Made by a program: the position numbers and the translations under genes
The notes under the pieces: model-generated
What the model was told of the DNA's origin: nothing
Database searches by the model: none
What the model saw: only the letters and a program-made list of their open reading frames with translations
Source: Ruminococcus sp. YE282
Lineage (GTDB): Bacteria; Bacillota; Clostridia; Oscillospirales; Acutalibacteraceae
Assembly (NCBI GenBank): GCA_900101355.1
Contig: FMUV01000004.1
Span: 46,343-110,342, forward strand
Direction of reading: 5' to 3'
DNA: 64,000 nt
Part shown: positions 24,255 through 58,990 of the stretch, piece after piece
How the letters are laid out: every line of letters begins with the position of its first letter
Numbering within the stretch: position 1 is the stretch's first letter

Positions 24255-24500
24255 GTGGCGAGAGGTATTTGTACTAAGATTATAGACCTTTGCACAAAAT
24301 ACATCAAAATCACGGTTGAAGACACTACGTTAATTCAAAAGGCAATTGCCGATATTACCACTCTTGACAATAACCAAAAAGTTCTTGCCGATGTGGATGG
24401 TGACGGTGAAATTTCAGCTTTTGATGTAACTTTGATTCAAAAATATATTGTCGGTGGTTATCAAAATACAGGGCTTGTCGGGATGACTGCAAATATTTAA
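24255..24500 (+). pseudogene. Remnant of a dockerin-containing protein
   Basis: Only the C-terminal end of a type I dockerin remains. From about 24303 the frame reads ITVEDTTLIQKAIADIT and then a complete second repeat ADVDGDGEISAFDVTLIQKY. The first calcium loop is cut at its start and no signal peptide or catalytic domain precedes it; a stop codon sits at 24237-24239 in the same frame. The cut lies next to CTAAGATTATA, the reverse complement of the start of the intergenic repeat family. The end (IVGGYQNTG) closely matches the dockerin of the LRR protein at 48742-49687. A hairpin terminator follows. Confidence 0.8.
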
Positions 24501-48741: not shown

Positions 48742-49687
48742 TTAAATAATTGCAGGCTTTCCGACATTCCCTGTATTTGAATAACCACCGACAATATATT
48801 TTTGAATCAAAGTTACATCAAAAACTGAAACTCCACCGTCACCGTTCACGTCGCCAAAAATTTTGTCATCAGATATAACAATAAAAGGAATGTTATGCTC
48901 ATCTGCATATTCTTGAGCATATGAGTCTTCATATCCGTATATAGTTAAACTTTTGCAACCGTAAAAGGCTTTATCATCAATCCATGAAACACTTTCAGGG
49001 ATTGTAATGTTCGTTAAGTTTGTACAACCGGAAAGACCCCACTTACCAATACTTGAAACACCATCATGTATTGTGATACTTGTTAAGTTTGTGCAGCAGG
49101 AAAAAACATCATTACCAATCCATGTAACACTCTCAGGGATTGTTATGTTCGTTAGACCTTTGCAATATCCAAAAGCCTTGTTACCAATACTTGTAACGCC
49201 GTCAGGAATTTGATAATCTCCGGCTTTTCCGATTGGATAAGCTATAAGGGTATCTTGTGCTTTATTAAATAAAACTCCGTCTACGCTCGAATACACACTG
49301 CTGTTTTTATAAGCCGTTATGCTCGTTAAGTTATCGCAACCGATAAAAGTTGATGCACTAATGCGTGTAACACCGTCAGGGATTTTTATGCTTTTTACAC
49401 TTGTGCAGCCTTTAAAAGTATAATCTAAAAAGGTAACCTTATGTCCCAAAATATCATACGGAATTGTAACGCTTGCGGCTGAACCAATGTATTTGGTTAA
49501 TGTGCAAGTATTATCTTCCTCCACATAATATTTAAAGTCATGATAGGTTTTCTCCACATAATATTCAGAGTCATAATAGGTTTCCTCCGCAGATACCCTG
49601 AACGGCGCACACATCATTACACCAATCAGCATTACAACGGCTAATATTGCCGAACCCGCTTTTGTTGTTTTTTTTTACTTTCTTCAT
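48742..49687 (-). CDS. Secreted BspA-like LRR protein with dockerin, reading frame broken at an A9 tract
   Basis: A secreted protein with leucine-rich BspA-type repeats (VTSIGNKAFGYCKGLTNITI, IPESVTWIGNDVFSCC, and others) and a C-terminal half-dockerin with one calcium repeat (GDVNGDGGVSVFDVTLIQKY). The start ATG at 49687 has GAGGAGG upstream and would give MKKVKKTTKAGSAILAVVML, a clean signal peptide. However, the run of nine A bases right after it (49668-49676 on the plus strand, as T) puts the ATG out of frame with the mature protein. Eight A bases would restore a 314-residue precursor. As read, the open frame begins only at about 49632. Sequencing error, mutation or phase variation are all possible. 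Confidence 0.85.
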
Positions 49688-52196: not shown

Positions 52197-52225
52197 TTGA
52201 CACGTAATTTTTATTATGATAAAAT
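52197..52225 (+). promoter_or_regulatory. Promoter of the cobalamin operon
   Basis: Perfect TTGACA (52197-52202), 17 bases, TAAAAT (52220-52225), just upstream of the riboswitch. Confidence 0.75.
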
Positions 52226-52239
52226 TAATCAAATTATAA

Positions 52240-52470
52240 TATGTATTTCAGATGTGCGGTTCACGGCGGATAAGTTCGCTGTGGTAAAGGGAATATCGGT
52301 GTGAATCCGAAGCAACAGCCATTACTGTGTTTGACCAAGGTCATAAGTCAGGTTACTTCCGCATTTCTGCGGATAATGCTTTCTTGGGCAAAAGAAGAAA
52401 CGCACCGATTTTTGTACTGTTTGTGCAGTACAGCTTTGTTGTGCTTTCCTTTTGGAAGGCTTTTTTTATG
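52240..52470 (+). promoter_or_regulatory. Cobalamin (adenosylcobalamin-type) riboswitch with terminator
   Basis: The aptamer core is clear: AAAGGGAATATCGGTGTGAA then TCCGAAGCAACAGCCATTAC and TGTG, the B12 box and conserved flanking joints of the Cobalamin RNA family. A terminator follows: GCTTTCC-TTTT-GGAAGGC with seven T (52442-52467), 30 bases before the first gene. Binding of B12 would therefore stop transcription of the operon. An in-frame extension of the first gene across this region is not real coding. Confidence 0.93.
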
Positions 52471-52498
52471 CCTTCAATATATTTACGGAGGAATTGCT

Positions 52499-54379
52499 AT
52501 GAAAACAATTAAAAGATTAACCTCGCTTGTTTTGACGGCAACTGTTATTACGTCTTTTTCGGCAGTTGGAATAAGTGCAAATGCAGCCGAAAACGACAAG
52601 GTGAGAGTTATTGTCAGCAACGATGTCTTTTCAAAAGCGGACGGAGCTGCCTGGGATGGCACTCTTGTTGATGAATGGGTGGATATTGACGAAAATTCCA
52701 CAATGCTTTCATCGGTTGTAAAAGCTCTTGAAAATCACGGCTATACTCAGACGGGCGCAGACAGCGGCTATTTTAGCGAAATAAACGGCCTGTCATCCTC
52801 AGACTGCCAGATGGGCGGCTGGATGGGTACGCTCAACGATTGGTTTACAAACGAACTTTTCGGCTATTATACCGTTGCTAACGGCACACTTGAAGCAGGC
52901 GATGAAATAAACCTGCAATATACAAAGTCTTACGGTGTTGACATCGGCTCGGATTGGAGCGACAACACTACCGCTCTTGCTTATGCGGAGTTCAGCGTCG
53001 GAACACTTTCTCCCGAGTTTGACCCTGAGGTTACCGATTATACCCTTACAGTTCCCTCAGATACCAAAAGCATTGCCGTCACACCGACAGCGTTCAACAA
53101 AAACTATCAGGTAAGAACTTACAAGAATGAATACACACCCGCTGAGAACGGTACAGAATACAAAAGAAATTCTGATATTTCGGTAGTTGACGGCGACAAA
53201 ATTATTATAGGTGTAGGCAGTGATAAATGGCCGTCAATGAATTACAGCGCAGGCGGCATAGAGTATACCTTTACAGTAAAATTTGAGCAGGAAGAGACAG
53301 CAAAGGCAGTTTCCGAAAAGTTAAAGTCAACTTCCGACTATTTGCTTACTCTAAGCACTCCGAGCGTTGGCTCTGTTGGCGGAGAGTGGAGTGTACTCGG
53401 TCTTGCGAGAAACAACACAATATCCGATTCTTTTGCAAACGGATATTATGCAAATCTTGAAAACTATGTAAAAGAAAAGGGTTCTTCAACCCTCAGCAAA
53501 AACAAATCAACAGACAATTCAAGAGTTATTCTTGCCCTTTCCGCAATCGGCAAAGACGCAAGAAACGTTGCAGGCTATAATTTGCTTGAACCATATGCGG
53601 ATTTTGAATATGTAAATTGGCAGGGAATCAACGGACCTGTATTCGCACTCATTGCTCTTGACACATACGGCTACGATATTCCGACAGACAGCTCGGTTTC
53701 AGAGCAGACAACAAGAGAAAAGCTTGTTGATTACATCCTTGAAAATGCGCTTGAAAACGGCGGCTGGACATTTTTCGGAACAACTGCCGACCCTGATATG
53801 ACCGGAATGGCAATTCAGGCTCTTGCACCTTATTACAATACCAATGAAGCTGTAAAGACGGCTGTTGACAAAGCTGTGGGCGTACTTTCTGATATGCAGA
53901 AGAGCAACGGCGGATTTGCTTCCTGGGGAACCGTAAAATCAGAAAGCTGTGCTCAGGTTGTTACTGCACTTGCAAGCATAGGCATTAATCCCGACAAAGA
54001 CAGCAGATTTGTAAAAGAGGGCGGCAGCGCAGTTGACGCTTTGCTTTCATTCGGCTGTGAAAACGGATTTAAGCATACCGCAGACGGAAGCTATAACCAA
54101 ATGGCAACAGAACAGGGCTTTTATGCACTTGTTGCATATAACAGATTTATAAACGGAAACAATTCGCTTTACGATATGACAGATGCATCTCCCGACAGCG
54201 TAAAATATGATGTTGACGGCAACGGTTATGTTGATGTTTCCGACGCAACAATTATTCAGAAGTACCTTGCAGGCACGGCAAAGCTTTCTTCAACTCAAAT
54301 TGCAAGGGCTGACGTTGACAACGACGGAAGTGTAACGGTTGTTGACGCAACATTTATTCAAAAACAACTTGTAAAATGA
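52499..54379 (+). CDS. Secreted DUF4430 / prenyltransferase-like / dockerin protein, putative B12-capture protein
   Basis: A 626-residue secreted protein. Signal peptide (1-30, ending ISANAA); DUF4430 domain (about 32-150, with GGWMGTLNDWF and YTKSYGVDIG); cadherin-like beta sandwich (about 163-262, FDPEVTDYTLTVPSDTKSIA); alpha/alpha prenyltransferase-like domain (about 268-560, GGWTFFGTTADPDMTGMAIQ, SNGGFASWGTVKSESCAQVV); and a two-repeat type I dockerin (568-626, DVDGNGYVDVSDATIIQKYL, ADVDNDGSVTVVDATFIQK). Mammalian intrinsic factor and transcobalamin combine an alpha/alpha barrel with a DUF4430-like domain to hold B12. With the cobalamin riboswitch directly upstream, a B12-binding role is a good inference. 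The dockerin would anchor it to a cohesin scaffold. GGAGG precedes the ATG at 52499. Confidence 0.88.
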   Translation: MKTIKRLTSLVLTATVITSFSAVGISANAAENDKVRVIVSNDVFSKADGAAWDGTLVDEWVDIDENSTMLSSVVKALENHGYTQTGADSGYFSEINGLSSSDCQMGGWMGTLNDWFTNELFGYYTVANGTLEAGDEINLQYTKSYGVDIGSDWSDNTTALAYAEFSVGTLSPEFDPEVTDYTLTVPSDTKSIAVTPTAFNKNYQVRTYKNEYTPAENGTEYKRNSDISVVDGDKIIIGVGSDKWPSMNYSAGGIEYTFTVKFEQEETAKAVSEKLKSTSDYLLTLSTPSVGSVGGEWSVLGLARNNTISDSFANGYYANLENYVKEKGSSTLSKNKSTDNSRVILALSAIGKDARNVAGYNLLEPYADFEYVNWQGINGPVFALIALDTYGYDIPTDSSVSEQTTREKLVDYILENALENGGWTFFGTTADPDMTGMAIQALAPYYNTNEAVKTAVDKAVGVLSDMQKSNGGFASWGTVKSESCAQVVTALASIGINPDKDSRFVKEGGSAVDALLSFGCENGFKHTADGSYNQMATEQGFYALVAYNRFINGNNSLYDMTDASPDSVKYDVDGNGYVDVSDATIIQKYLAGTAKLSSTQIARADVDNDGSVTVVDATFIQKQLVK

Positions 54380-54402
54380 TTTAATTATCGGCGGCGAAAA
54401 AT

Positions 54403-55338
54403 ATGAAATCTTTAATTACTAAAATCATAAATTTCATAAAGCAGCACAAAACGGCAGTTATTTCAAGTTTGGCTGTGGTTTTGGTACTTGCGGCGTCCTT
54501 TGTGTTTTTCGGAAACGAGAGTCCAAATTCTCAGAAAGAGCTTACAAAAAGCTCGTATTCGGCAGAAGACAGCACCGATGAAACTCAAAAATCGGATTTA
54601 ATTGTTTCCGCAACTGAGAGCTCCAAAAGTACCGAACCGCAAAACTCAGAATCTTCCAAATCGGATGAAAGCTCAAACTCTGCGGCTGATGACAATAAAG
54701 GGAAAACCGACAGCGGCGAATCCTTTGTGCAGAATCAGACGGTTGTTGAGCCTAATGTCTCGCCGAGTCCGTACGGAGACAACCAATCTCATCAAGATTC
54801 TGAATCGAAACAGGAATCGGAAAGTTCTTCTTCCGACGGAAAAGATAAATATCTTACCGACCCGATACCCGAGGGCAAGCCAAAACCGGTAGAACCTCAG
54901 GACCAGGAAATTGAGGACAAAACACTTTATTGTACGTTCTCAATCTCTTGTGCGACTATACTTGATAATATGAAGAGCCTGAGAAAGCATAAGGCAGACC
55001 TTGTTCCATCTGACGGCTGGATTTTAAAACCGCAAAAGGTTGAATTTAATGAGGGAGAGTCTGTGTTTGACGTGCTTCAGCGTGTGTGCAAAGAAAACAA
55101 GATTCATATGGAAGCGTCGTGGACTCCGATTTATAATTCCTCATATGTTGAGGGAATCGCCAATTTGTATGAATTTGACTGCGGTAATCAGTCGGGCTGG
55201 ATGTATAAGGTAAACGATTGGTTTCCAAATTACGGCTGTTCACGTTATGAGCTAAAAAACGGCGACACGGTTGAATGGAAGTACACCTGCAAAGGTTACG
55301 GATTTGATGTTGGCGCATCAATGCCGATGGGCGGCTAA
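54403..55338 (+). CDS. Membrane-anchored DUF4430 protein, putative cobalamin receptor
   Basis: A 311-residue protein with an N-terminal membrane anchor (about 17-36), a long Ser/Glu/Asp-rich linker (38-170) suited to span the cell wall, and a C-terminal DUF4430 domain (about 175-305) with GWILKPQKVEFNEGESVFDV, CGNQSGWMYKVNDWFPNYGC and DTVEWKYTCKGYGFDVG. It may receive B12 from the dockerin protein and hand it to the ECF transporter. It starts 23 bases after the previous gene; the ribosome site is weak. Confidence 0.85.
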   Translation: MKSLITKIINFIKQHKTAVISSLAVVLVLAASFVFFGNESPNSQKELTKSSYSAEDSTDETQKSDLIVSATESSKSTEPQNSESSKSDESSNSAADDNKGKTDSGESFVQNQTVVEPNVSPSPYGDNQSHQDSESKQESESSSSDGKDKYLTDPIPEGKPKPVEPQDQEIEDKTLYCTFSISCATILDNMKSLRKHKADLVPSDGWILKPQKVEFNEGESVFDVLQRVCKENKIHMEASWTPIYNSSYVEGIANLYEFDCGNQSGWMYKVNDWFPNYGCSRYELKNGDTVEWKYTCKGYGFDVGASMPMGG

Positions 55339-55393
55339 TCAGCGGCAAAAGAATTTTGCTCCACTGATATTAACATTGATTTAAGGTAAAATT

Positions 55394-56284
55394 ATGAAAG
55401 ACAGTTTTTCACGGCTCAATCCGTTTGTCAATTTAATATTTTTTGCTTTTGTAATTGTGCTGACAATGTTTACGCTTAATCCAATCTGCATTGGAATCTC
55501 ACTTGTGTGCGCTTTGCTCAACGCACTGTACCTCAACGGAAAAAAAGCGGTAAGAATTTCGCTTTTGTACCTATTGCCTATGGCAGTGATGATTTCGCTT
55601 ATCAATCCGCTGTTTAATCACCAAGGCGTAACAATTCTCACATACTTTTCTTGGGGTAATCCGCTTACCCTTGAATCAATATTATACGGAATCGCAACCG
55701 CAGTACTGCTCAGTTCGACAGTACTGTGGTTTTCGTGCTTTAATACGGTAATGACAAGCGACAAATTTGTGTATCTGTTCGGCAAGGCGGCTCCTTCGCT
55801 CAGCCTTGTGTTGTCAATGACGCTTCGGTTTGTGCCAAAATTTACGGCTCAAATGAAAAAGGTAAGACAGTCTCAGAAGTGTATAGGCAGAGATGTGTCG
55901 GACGGCGGTTTGATAAGCAGAATAAAGCACGGAATCAAAATAATTTCAATTATGATAACCTGGTCGCTTGAAAATGCAATTGAAACTGCGGATTCAATGA
56001 AAAGTCGTGGTCACGGACTAAAGGGCAGAACGGCATATTCCGTCTTTAAATTTACGCAAAGAGATTTTGCCGTGCTTGCATTCGAGTTGATTCTCGGATT
56101 GGCGGCTGTAATACTGCTGTTTGGCGGAATTTCCGAGTTTTGGTATTATCCGTCAATCAGCGGCAATATTTTTGAAGCAATTTCTGTTGTTGACTATTTA
56201 ATTTATGCGGCGCTCATGCTTATGCCGCTTGTTATCAATGTTTGGGAGGGCAAGAAATGGAAGCGTTTAAGGTCGAAAATCTGA
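55394..56284 (+). CDS. ecfT: ECF transporter membrane subunit EcfT (CbiQ family)
   Basis: EcfT is the scaffold helix bundle that links the ATPases to the substrate-binding S component. The 296-residue protein has about five helices, the conserved LSLVLSMTLRFVPKFTAQM and the coupling motif ADSMKSRGHGLKGRT (the Ala-Arg-Gly type motif). It starts 56 bases after the DUF4430 gene and overlaps the next by 28 bases. Together they form a complete dedicated ECF transporter. Confidence 0.93.
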   Translation: MKDSFSRLNPFVNLIFFAFVIVLTMFTLNPICIGISLVCALLNALYLNGKKAVRISLLYLLPMAVMISLINPLFNHQGVTILTYFSWGNPLTLESILYGIATAVLLSSTVLWFSCFNTVMTSDKFVYLFGKAAPSLSLVLSMTLRFVPKFTAQMKKVRQSQKCIGRDVSDGGLISRIKHGIKIISIMITWSLENAIETADSMKSRGHGLKGRTAYSVFKFTQRDFAVLAFELILGLAAVILLFGGISEFWYYPSISGNIFEAISVVDYLIYAALMLMPLVINVWEGKKWKRLRSKI

Positions 56285-58899
56285 CGTTCAGATATCCCGA
56301 AACAGGCGTTAATGTGCTTAAGGATATTTGCTTTTGTATTAACAAAGGTGAATTTATAACCCTCTGCGGACCGTCGGGCTGCGGCAAAAGCACGCTTTTG
56401 CGCAATATGAAGCCTGTGTTGGCGCCTGTTGGGGTTAAATCGGGCAAAATACTGTTTAACGGAAGTGAAATATCAACACTTTCTCAGCGTGAACAGAGCG
56501 AAAAAATCGGTTATGTTATGCAATCGCCCGATAATCAGATTGTAACGGACAAGGTTTGGCACGAGCTTGCTTTCGGGCTTGAAAGTCTTGGTTTTGACAA
56601 CAAAAACATAAGAAAACGGGTTGCCGAAACGGCAAGCTTTTTTGGAATCCAAAACCTTTTTGATAAAAGCGTTGACGAGCTTTCGGGAGGTCAAAAACAG
56701 CTCTTGAATTTGGCGTCGATAATGGCTATGCAGCCCGAAGTGCTGATACTTGACGAACCGACAAGCCAGCTTGACCCGATTGCCGCATCGGACTTTCTTG
56801 CGGTTATTTCAAAAATCAACCGTGAAATCGGCACAACAATACTTATAACAGAGCACAGGCTTGACGAGATTTTGCCAGTGAGCGACCGTGTGCTGGTTAT
56901 GGAAAACGGAGAGATAATTTCGGACGATACGCCGCAGAATACGGGCATTAATTTAAAACAAAAAAACATTAAAACTTTTTTGTCACTGCCGTCGCCTATG
57001 CGCATATGGGACAGCTGCGACGGAAAAAGCCCCTGCCCCGTTACCGTTACGCAGGGACGAAAATGGCTTGAAGAATACGCTGAAAATCATACGCTCTTTA
57101 AGCTGCCAAATGAGAGTATTCCATGTAATGACGGCAATGTTTGCATTGAATTAAAAGATGTTTGGTTCAGATATGAAAAAGACAGTCCTGATGTTCTCAA
57201 GGGTCTGTCGCTGAATGTGTTTAAAGGTGAATTTGTAACTGTTCTCGGAGGAAACGGAACTGGAAAGTCAACGTTGCTGTCGGTTCTTTGCGGTATAAGC
57301 TCTCCGTACAGCGGCAGTGTGAAAATTGCCGACGCACATATTGACGGAGATATAAACATAGCTTGTCTGCCGCAAAATCCTCAGACATTGTTTGTAAAAA
57401 AGACCGTGCTTGAAGATTTGCTTGAAGTTTTTGACGGCCGAAAAATTGATAAAGAACTTAAAGAAAAACGCCTTGCCCAGGCTGTTGCCCTTTGCAGGCT
57501 GAAAACACTTTTGAATCGCCACCCCTATGACCTGTCGGGCGGCGAACAGCAGCGTGCCGCCCTTGCAAAACTTTTACTTTTAAGGCCGAAAATTTTGTTG
57601 CTTGACGAGCCTACCAAGGGTTTGGACGCAGAGTTTAAGGCTGTGTTTGCCGAGATTATCGCAACGCTTTGCAAGTCTGGCGTTACCGTGATTATGGTTA
57701 GTCACGATGTTGAGTTTTGCGCTCAATACAGTCACAGATGTATGCTGATGTTTGGCGGCGAGATTGTGTCGGACGGAACTCCGAGAGAGTTTTTTTCTTC
57801 AAACAGTTTTTACGTTACCTCTGCAAACCGAATGTCACGCGGAATAATCAAAGACGCCGTAACGGCTTACGATGTGATTTTTTGTTGTACAGGCAAAGGC
57901 AATGAGAAAAACGACGACATTGATTTTGACCTCTATGACAGCTCATACACAATAGAAACAAAAAACAACAAACCGAAAACTTCCGAAAAACTGCCGCTCT
58001 GGAAGAAAATTTTCGGAGTTTTCTCGGCAGCTGCGCTGTTGTTCGGACTTGTTGTAAATCTTGATTACATCAGTTCTTTTAATTCCAAAACATTGCCTGT
58101 TTGGGCGGATTTTTTGATAATCGCCGTGCCTGTTGCGTTGCTTATGGTGTCATTCGGTTCAAAATCAAAGCGTCCTATTGACCAAAGACCGAAAAAAACA
58201 AAAATCCCGAAAAGAACCGCTGCCGCGGCGGCAATGATTTTGTTTGCCGTTCCGATTACGATATTTGTGGGCGTGGTTTATCTTAATGACCAAAAATATT
58301 TGTTTATTTCGTTGCTTGTAATGCTTGAATGTATGCTGCCGTTTTTTCTTGTGTTTGAGGGACGAAAGCCTCAGGCACGTGAACTGGTTATAATAGCTGT
58401 TATGTGTGCAATTGCGGTAGTCGGCAGAACTGCGTTCTATATGCTTACGCAGTTCAAGCCCGTTGTGGCTCTTGTGATAATTTCGGGGGTTGCGTTTGGC
58501 GGTGAGTCAGGCTTTTTGGTCGGAGCGGTGACAATGCTGGTTTCAAGTTTTGTGTTTCAGTTCGGCGCATGGACGCCTTGGCAGATGTTTTGTGCCGGAA
58601 TAATCGGATTTTTAGCCGGAATTTTATTCCGAAAAGGGCTTTTGAGCCGCAACAGAGGTGCGCTGTGCATATTTGGCTTTATATCTACAATAGTTATTTA
58701 CGGCGGAATAATCAACTTCGGTTCGGCAATTATGGCGCACGCAGATATGAATCTTGAAACAATTCTGTCGTTTTACGTAACCGGATTTCCGTTTGACATA
58801 GTTCATGCGCTGTCAACTGTTGTATTTTTGTACTTTTGCGCTGAACCCATGCTTGAAAAGCTTGACAGAATCAAGGTAAAGTATGCATTGATTTCCTAA
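56257..58899 (+). CDS. EcfA-EcfA'-S fusion: two ATPases and substrate component in one chain
   Basis: An 880-residue fusion. First ABC ATPase: Walker A GPSGCGKST (about 38-46), signature LSGGQKQLLNLASIM, Walker B LILDEPTSQLD. Second ABC ATPase from about residue 290: GGNGTGKSTLLSVL, LSGGEQQRAALAKLLL, LLLDEPTKGLD. From about residue 580 several membrane helices form an ECF S component (RELVIIAVMCAIAVVGRTAF, VIISGVAFGGESGFLVGAVT, FGAWTPWQMFCAGIIGFLAG). The riboswitch suggests the substrate is cobalamin. GGGAGGG precedes the ATG at 56257. The end is followed by a hairpin terminator. Confidence 0.92.
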   Translation: MEAFKVENLTFRYPETGVNVLKDICFCINKGEFITLCGPSGCGKSTLLRNMKPVLAPVGVKSGKILFNGSEISTLSQREQSEKIGYVMQSPDNQIVTDKVWHELAFGLESLGFDNKNIRKRVAETASFFGIQNLFDKSVDELSGGQKQLLNLASIMAMQPEVLILDEPTSQLDPIAASDFLAVISKINREIGTTILITEHRLDEILPVSDRVLVMENGEIISDDTPQNTGINLKQKNIKTFLSLPSPMRIWDSCDGKSPCPVTVTQGRKWLEEYAENHTLFKLPNESIPCNDGNVCIELKDVWFRYEKDSPDVLKGLSLNVFKGEFVTVLGGNGTGKSTLLSVLCGISSPYSGSVKIADAHIDGDINIACLPQNPQTLFVKKTVLEDLLEVFDGRKIDKELKEKRLAQAVALCRLKTLLNRHPYDLSGGEQQRAALAKLLLLRPKILLLDEPTKGLDAEFKAVFAEIIATLCKSGVTVIMVSHDVEFCAQYSHRCMLMFGGEIVSDGTPREFFSSNSFYVTSANRMSRGIIKDAVTAYDVIFCCTGKGNEKNDDIDFDLYDSSYTIETKNNKPKTSEKLPLWKKIFGVFSAAALLFGLVVNLDYISSFNSKTLPVWADFLIIAVPVALLMVSFGSKSKRPIDQRPKKTKIPKRTAAAAAMILFAVPITIFVGVVYLNDQKYLFISLLVMLECMLPFFLVFEGRKPQARELVIIAVMCAIAVVGRTAFYMLTQFKPVVALVIISGVAFGGESGFLVGAVTMLVSSFVFQFGAWTPWQMFCAGIIGFLAGILFRKGLLSRNRGALCIFGFISTIVIYGGIINFGSAIMAHADMNLETILSFYVTGFPFDIVHALSTVVFLYFCAEPMLEKLDRIKVKYALIS

Positions 58900-58956
58900 A
58901 TTAATATCAAAATCGCTTTAATTGAAAATACACGAGCAAAGTTTTAAATTGATACA

Positions 58957-58990
58957 AAAAAACACCTGTCATTTGGCAGGTGTTTTTATA
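58957..58990 (+). terminator. Terminator of the cobalamin operon
   Basis: 10-bp stem AAAACACCTG / CAGGTGTTTT with an 8-base loop and a following TTATATTT. Confidence 0.85.

Follow-up and report, generated by a model that had tools for sequence, protein, structure and literature searches.

Can a scaffold of the cohesin-dockerin type carry a receptor for a vitamin? The question is raised by a locus of Ruminococcus sp. YE282 (family Acutalibacteraceae; source genome 2.54 Mb in 81 contigs), where four genes behind a cobalamin riboswitch encode two proteins with DUF4430 domains, one of them bearing a dockerin, and an energy-coupling factor (ECF) transporter. The locus lies within a stretch of 64,000 nucleotides of contig FMUV01000004.1, hereafter called the window. 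The existence of the operon is confirmed, and its assignment to vitamin B12 (cobalamin) is well supported. We consider it probable that this is a B12-repressed capture-and-import operon in which a dockerin-anchored receptor feeds a CbrT-like ECF transporter; we infer that the products of genes 1 and 2 bind B12, that the vitamin is handed over and that the receptor docks. The operon appears to be a variant of a kind that had been predicted earlier, its new element being the putative attachment of the receptor to a scaffold. Judged by domain matches, this attachment recurs within one family in several genera, and isolates of Ruminococcus bromii have it too.

A riboswitch-led operon for an ECF transporter

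The promoter, the riboswitch with its terminator and the four co-directional genes named in the original prediction were all located by scans at 52197-58987, which reads as a single unit on the plus strand closed by a hairpin. The unit begins with a predicted sigma-70-like promoter (52197..52225; TTGACA-17-TAAAAT with TG before the -10 element), a consensus match alone, which fits at 11 of 12 positions and is the best site of the region in a scan that gave 23 matches against a mean of 15.7 in shuffled sequence. Behind it, a search of the whole window with the Rfam model RF00174 identified the expected cobalamin riboswitch aptamer, in a compact form, at 52240..52377 (36.5 bits against a gathering score of 31.5; E 1.2e-5). 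This is the sole RF00174 match of the genome at E<=0.001, and its core is kept in the aligned leaders of seven relatives.

An intrinsic terminator is predicted from the sequence at 52443..52467 (stem 52443-52460, then seven T), followed by a Shine-Dalgarno sequence (GGAGG, 52487..52491) upstream of the gene 1 start codon, ATG 52499; the frame listed by the gene-finding program begins at GTG 52301, within the riboswitch. The leader folds more strongly than shuffled sequences (z -3.27). In the computed free fold the aptamer core at 52295-52303 pairs with 52401-52409, and in an intermediate ending at 52452 the aptamer segment AAAGGGAA (52286-52293) pairs with the 5' arm and loop of the terminator. 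The latter pairing may act as an antiterminator that is broken on ligand binding, which would make the leader an OFF switch; this direction is drawn from the computed fold and the gene content.

The four genes are close together or overlapping: gene 1 (52499..54379, 626 amino acids [aa]), gene 2 (54403..55338, 311 aa), gene 3 (55394..56284, 296 aa) and gene 4 (56257..58899, 880 aa), the last two sharing 28 bases. A terminator-like hairpin found by sequence scan at 58958..58987 ends the unit.

Genes 3 and 4 were expected to encode EcfT and a fused EcfA-EcfA'-S protein, and matches to Pfam, NCBIfam and motifs bear this out. Gene 3 is an EcfT of the CbiQ family (Pfam CbiQ, 44.1 bits). In gene 4, Pfam finds two ABC domains and ECF S-component families, and two Walker A motifs and two LSGG signatures are present, so that the ECF set of T component, two ATPases and S component is complete. 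By sequence the S domain (58363-58881) is CbrT-like and does not resemble the S component of another substrate, a result that could have spoken against B12: a single-sequence search of the Protein Data Bank (PDB) returned 6FNP_A as its sole match (1.2e-8), and a profile search gave 6FNP at 2.7e-18 with a riboflavin uptake protein next (0.0016), making CbrT the nearest among solved structures. Entry 6FNP is ECF-CbrT of Lactobacillus delbrueckii, for which import of cobalamin and cobinamide is demonstrated (PMC5997447, accessible text).

The same genome encodes a cobalamin-type methionine synthase, MetH. CbiD, the synthesis gene searched for, was not found in the genome, and no FecCD (BtuC-like) match lies above the cut-off there, the one match (21.5 bits) having a stop inside.

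Two predicted outer proteins and candidate scaffold partners

Gene 2 encodes a putative membrane-tethered protein, with an anchor at about aa 17-37 by hydropathy, a polar linker (aa 41-165, 80% S/T/D/E/K/N/Q/P) and a DUF4430 domain at 55054-55287 (+; Pfam 74.5 bits) that is well conserved across 52 sequences (SGWMY.VN.WFPNYGCSRY). The model of this domain (pLDDT 90.3, pTM 0.82) bears out, as a predicted fold, the likeness of DUF4430 to intrinsic factor and transcobalamin that had been claimed: 17 of 19 PDB matches in Foldseek at E<=0.001 are transcobalamin, intrinsic factor or haptocorrin, with transcobalamin at 2.7e-6 and the apo beta domain of human transcobalamin superposing at TM 0.78 (by target) and 2.3 A. 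The remaining two matches are two chains of 3u7z. None of these structures was recovered by the gene 2 sequence profile, and the link to transcobalamin is therefore one of fold. For human transcobalamin there is a structure of the beta domain on its own in complex with cyanocobalamin (5np4, as far as its entry describes), and therefore a lone beta-grasp domain is able to bind B12. As a side observation, 3u7z is RUMGNA_00854 of R. gnavus, titled a putative metal binding protein; it has the transcobalamin beta fold in common with gene 2, and it might be a B12 binder.

Gene 1 encodes a protein with a signal peptide, a divergent DUF4430 domain (52712-52888), a cadherin-like domain (53009-53203; Pfam 27.7 bits), an alpha-alpha toroid (about 53306-54193; SQHop_cyclase_C at 20.9 bits, cut-off 26.1, and structure model) and a type I dockerin (54206-54370). 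It had been described as a secreted DUF4430, prenyltransferase-like and dockerin protein, and for the toroid and the dockerin this description stands; the DUF4430 domain is divergent, scoring 19.7 bits against a cut-off of 23.8 in a single-protein scan. A genome search gave it 23.5 bits, or 25.4 with in-frame neighbours, and the domain of the R. bromii relative L300 scores 33.4 bits, above the cut-off. The two DUF4430 matches of the genome are both in this operon. The gene 1 model (pLDDT 86.1, 55 sequences) is confident in the toroid and not in part of the DUF4430 domain. The alpha-alpha toroid fold is supported by this predicted structure, and its proposed role in B12 capture rests on context.

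The dockerin scores well above its cut-off (Dockerin_1, 49.6 bits) and has both calcium loops complete, and its loops and ATxIQK motif match those of the other dockerins of the genome, which has 24 dockerin matches in all. Ten other dockerin proteins were scanned over the length covered by their loci; among them are an amylase/pullulanase with CBM26, further CBM26 proteins, GH53, LRR and CotH proteins, a transglutaminase and a papain-type protease, which make an amylosome-like set. There are four cohesin matches in the genome, three of them above the cut-off. One cohesin belongs to an open reading frame (ORF) of 567 aa or more, which has a membrane segment at its C-terminus, and resembles cohesins of R. 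bromii (Amy4, 9qf3, 4.2e-18; Coh5, 7uvg, 2.3e-17). The dockerin call was thus upheld, with both loops present, the domain kept in relatives and a candidate cohesin partner encoded in the genome, and the source organism appears to resemble R. bromii. Another candidate (L274, 5456-6379) gave 32.4 bits in the genome search and was not counted as a sure cohesin, hmmscan being silent and the best PDB match having an E of 0.17; the cohesin match of L275 (24.6 bits) had no PDB match. Elsewhere in the window there are two more dockerin-like matches, at 24306-24449 (+, 33.8 bits) and 48787-48855 (-, 24.5 bits).

Linkage and recurrence across genomes

An RF00174 match is present in 194 of 300 genomes of the family. 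We collected up to 10.5 kb downstream of 150 riboswitch loci from 124 genomes, these being the loci among the matches listed; the weakest matches, including that of the window itself, fall outside the 150, so compact low-scoring riboswitches are under-represented. The DUF4430 hidden Markov model (HMM) was built from 29 of 30 loci (L016 was too short), and the dockerin HMM omitted 6 of 24 loci by length.

Of the 150 loci, 82 have DUF4430 on the same strand within 7 kb downstream and none has it on the opposite strand, and the linkage of riboswitch and DUF4430 is therefore beyond chance. The corresponding same-strand counts were 36 for the toroid, 59 for S, 33 for T, 59 for A and 9 for the dockerin, against a single opposite-strand match, to A (toroid, S, T and dockerin, 0). 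DUF4430 or the toroid occurs at 89 loci; 62 have an S match within 9 kb, and DUF4430 is also present at 49 of these. At 18 loci no model matched within 9 kb, several of them being shortened by contig ends. Ten proteins from nine loci lacking DUF4430 and toroid include Peripla_BP_2 and FecCD (BtuF/BtuC-like), CbiD, CbiA, CbiM and GlutR.

The contents of the loci vary, from a riboswitch with a small DUF4430 gene and a lone S gene up to the full set. The small DUF4430 gene with a lone S gene behind it makes a minimal two-gene B12 module, in which DUF4430 is of a distinct subtype; one lone S protein of this small type was checked, and 6FNP was its sole PDB match. At seven further loci (L165, L219, L226, L227, L247, L173 and L251) the riboswitch is directly followed by EcfT-EcfA-EcfA'(-S) with no DUF4430 match, and these may be a receptor-free form of the same transporter. 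Among 37 toroid loci, the window included, DUF4430 is in the same ORF in 7, in a separate ORF only in 23 and not seen in 7. Because the separate arrangement is so frequent, we propose that the toroid often finds its beta-grasp partner in trans.

The same association is seen from the side of the transporter. A scan of 84,980 species genomes yielded at least 592 relatives of the S domain, of which the best 80 were taken. DUF4430 is present at 48 of the 58 loci among these with at least 6 kb of upstream sequence, and the toroid also at 44 of the 48. In Paenibacillus, Bacillus, Fusibacter and Lutispora, a riboswitch reaches the threshold at six of seven loci searched (uncut, with 98-113 bits, in four, and clipped at the locus end in two), with none at threshold in the seventh, L323. 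One further observation concerns L354 (Bacillus sp. REN16), where tandem cobalamin riboswitches (661-855 and 1044-1224) stand ahead of a DUF4430/toroid operon. A regular expression for riboswitch cores was also tried and dropped, since its matches in the 80 loci numbered 117 forward against 92 reverse, and it recovered only 54 of 151 known loci.

The nine riboswitch loci with a dockerin within 7 kb fall in genera g25, g31, g44 and g106, the genus of the window (g1) being a fifth. Pfam places the dockerin above its cut-off in eight and at 19.0 bits (cut-off 22.9) in L123. Its position differs by genus: after DUF4430 in g31, after two toroids in g106, after DUF4430 and a PQQ-type propeller in g25, and, in the one locus from g44, after a propeller with no DUF4430. 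Four genera, g1 included, thus have a DUF4430 or toroid protein that bears a dockerin. Four riboswitch-controlled loci of g25 and g44 (L193, L208, L220, L172) encode a dockerin protein in which a PQQ-type beta-propeller replaces the toroid, with DUF4430 in three of the four. Within g1, a gene 1 relative in genome G259 aligns over residues 104-625, dockerin included.

Dockerin matches also occur at 11 of the best 80 S-side loci, in two forms. The fused form of the window is found in L279-L281 and in L300 and L301, from R. bromii 5AMG and ATCC 27255. In the split form (L282, L283, L287, L337 and L299, the last from Lachnoclostridium sp. MSJ-17), a DUF4430-cadherin-dockerin protein accompanies a toroid-dockerin protein. 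Four of six split proteins from L287, L299 and L337 have Dockerin_1 above the Pfam cut-off; the toroid halves of L287 and L299 reach 21.0 and 17.6 bits (cut-off 22.9). L332 has two dockerin ORFs, neither with a toroid or DUF4430 match. Riboswitches precede L282 (39.1 bits), L337 (38.8) and L299 (36.0). That of L279 (27.4 bits) is under the threshold, and its core is kept, as it is in L300. In L301, L280, L283 and L287 no riboswitch was found at threshold; the leader of L301 is nearly identical to that of L300, and L280 shares the core.

Alternatives, precedents and meaning

Several results weigh against a dockerin-anchored B12 receptor. With the dockerin in 9 of the 150 listed riboswitch loci and 11 of the best 80 S-side loci, the scaffold is no general need, and even within g1 the operon of genome G185 (L214) has DUF4430 and toroid with no dockerin match. 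By a strict motif, both calcium loops are present in 6 of the 15 dockerins of relatives (fused and split) and one loop in 9; the cohesin matches of the genome are few and mostly weak. The R. bromii riboswitch of L300 (27.0 bits) lies under the Rfam threshold. Besides falling under its cut-off as a single protein, the DUF4430 domain of gene 1 is partly ill-modelled (blocks of pLDDT 47-67). Transcobalamin chains make up only 4 of the 24 Foldseek matches of gene 1 at E<=0.001, with complement C3 first, and B12 carriers are 0 of the 26 PDB matches of the toroid sequence profile, which recovers cyclases, synthases and alpha-2-macroglobulin instead. The GW.Y motif is present in just 3 of 28 small DUF4430 domains adjoining lone S genes, and of the 58 CbrT-type loci with sufficient upstream sequence, 10 have neither DUF4430 nor toroid.

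Such points leave room for other explanations. The operon could serve B12 while the dockerin is a calcium-stabilised tail without a scaffold, gene 1 then encoding a free or loosely held secreted binder. Dockerins do occur in genomes without cohesin matches, as in Deinobacterium chartae among the control genomes; Bacillus L354 has a weak dockerin-like C-terminus (19.7 bits, cut-off 22.9), a genus to our knowledge not known for cellulosomes; and few of the S-side loci have a dockerin at all. We nevertheless think a scaffold-free tail unlikely, given that the loops and motif of gene 1 match those of the other dockerins of the genome, that one of the cohesins encoded there resembles Amy4 and Coh5 of R. 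bromii, and that in five loci the receptor is split and each of its halves bears a dockerin. Import of another corrinoid or precursor, such as cobinamide or another cobamide, under the same B12 control is likewise improbable, although gut cobamides are diverse: MetH requires a complete cobamide, and CbiD is missing from the genome, where the remaining cobinamide-salvage genes were not searched for. In favour of this account, CbrT accepts cobinamide besides cobalamin (PMC5997447, accessible text).

Two readings were set aside. Gene 1 might be an enzyme of the terpene-cyclase or prenyltransferase type, or a structural toroid, with the transporter alone related to B12. Squalene-hopene cyclase is the best match of the toroid profile (2.1e-9), and terpene cyclases, farnesyltransferases and alpha-2-macroglobulins are among the Foldseek matches, but a motif search of gene 1 found no DxDD, a motif of terpene-cyclase-type enzymes, and its product is predicted to be secreted. 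Moreover, the same-strand toroids behind listed riboswitches number 36 with none opposed, and DUF4430 accompanies the toroid, within one ORF or elsewhere in the same downstream stretch, at 30 of the 37 toroid loci, so we regard this reading as very improbable. The CbiQ name of gene 3 could point to a cobalt or nickel transporter, and the Pfam score is above the cut-off; the NCBIfam model TIGR02454 reaches 28.8 bits, under its cut-off of 111.8. EcfT components generally score as CbiQ, however, the S domain is CbrT-like and the CbiM family is absent among its listed Pfam matches, leaving metal transport with hardly any likelihood.

For the dockerin-anchored B12 receptor that we favour, the following sequence of events is proposed. 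When cobalamin is scarce, the leader would be read through; when it is present, the aptamer would let the terminator form. After secretion, the gene 1 product would be attached through its dockerin to a cell-surface cohesin scaffold of the kind that bears the starch proteins of the cell. Its toroid and a DUF4430 beta-grasp, which may be its own or be supplied in trans by gene 2, would close on the corrinoid as in intrinsic factor and transcobalamin, and in the split form a dockerin on each half would hold both on one scaffold. The gene 2 protein, tethered to the membrane by its long polar linker, would take or complete the B12 complex and present it to the S domain of gene 4, and EcfT with the two EcfA domains would drive import, chiefly for methionine synthase.

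Parts of this scheme have precedents. Burroughs et al. (2007) predicted that SLBB/toroid proteins associated with CbiO/CbiQ genes are B12 scavengers, described paired paralogues as well as a propeller architecture, and suggested that the animal versions were acquired from low-GC Gram-positives (PMC1796856, accessible text). Their systems share with ours a secreted fusion of DUF4430-type domain and toroid, a second such protein, and ABC ATPase and T genes; added here are the riboswitch, the dockerin (a word absent from the accessible text of PMC1796856), an S domain whose sequence links it to CbrT, and the count of riboswitch linkage. A vitamin receptor on a cohesin-dockerin assembly had been put forward as new, and this holds for the dockerin and scaffold, whereas the DUF4430/toroid/CbiO/CbiQ operon for B12 was predicted in 2007 (PMC1796856). 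ECF-CbrT of L. delbrueckii has the S-component family and ECF cobalamin import in common with this operon, but there an ECF module is predicted to serve eight S components, CbrT among them, whereas here A, A' and S form one chain; its cluster has a cbrS gene, and the accessible text describes no extracellular binding protein, in contrast to the outer DUF4430 proteins found here (PMC5997447).

Human intrinsic factor and transcobalamin likewise combine a toroid with a DUF4430-type beta-grasp domain for extracellular B12 capture, a function predicted here. In gene 1 the domain order is reversed, with extra cadherin-like and dockerin domains, and the operon has a second beta-grasp protein at the membrane; the human proteins differ also in working with an endocytic receptor. 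BtuG of Bacteroides, like the proposed gene 1 product, is a surface B12 catcher serving a transporter in gut bacteria, but it is a seven-bladed propeller lipoprotein acting with the outer-membrane BtuB, unlike the toroid-based, dockerin-borne protein of an ECF system (PMC6143338, accessible text). The propeller-dockerin variants (L172, L193, L208, L220) recall BtuG.

The closest scaffold is the R. bromii amylosome, a dockerin/cohesin surface complex (PMC5814915, PMC9112005) whose type of cohesin is matched in the present genome. R. bromii has 27 dockerin proteins, 22 of them 'Doc' proteins without a GH13 module (PMC9112005), and calcium-dependent binding of dockerin to its cell surface is demonstrated (PMC5814915). 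The components described in the accessible text of these papers serve starch, with no vitamin receptor named, and word searches of that text, and of PMC2930009 and PMC11557425, found no dockerin-borne B12 receptor. None was found in the open-access literature, which omits most subscription papers, nor was any open-access paper found with both DUF4430 and dockerin as terms.

Looking further, we tentatively raise the possibility that in gut Clostridia the cohesin-dockerin scaffolds also serve to capture vitamins. An intrinsic factor in two pieces, its toroid and beta-grasp on separate proteins, would be assembled in trans on scaffold and membrane, close on B12 and feed an ECF transporter that uses outer binding proteins against the rule of its class, and at least one unexplained Doc protein of R. 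bromii would be such a receptor. If true, vitamin capture would join the known tasks of cellulosome-like complexes, and a candidate role would be at hand for a dockerin protein in a keystone starch degrader of the gut, most of whose Doc proteins are presumed to bind starch. The operon also questions whether ECF importers always work without outer binding proteins, and makes the 2007 proposal that animal B12 carriers derive from bacterial B12 catchers testable in culturable strains. For the organisms themselves, a scaffold-borne receptor would explain how B12-requiring Ruminococcus-like bacteria compete for the vitamin.

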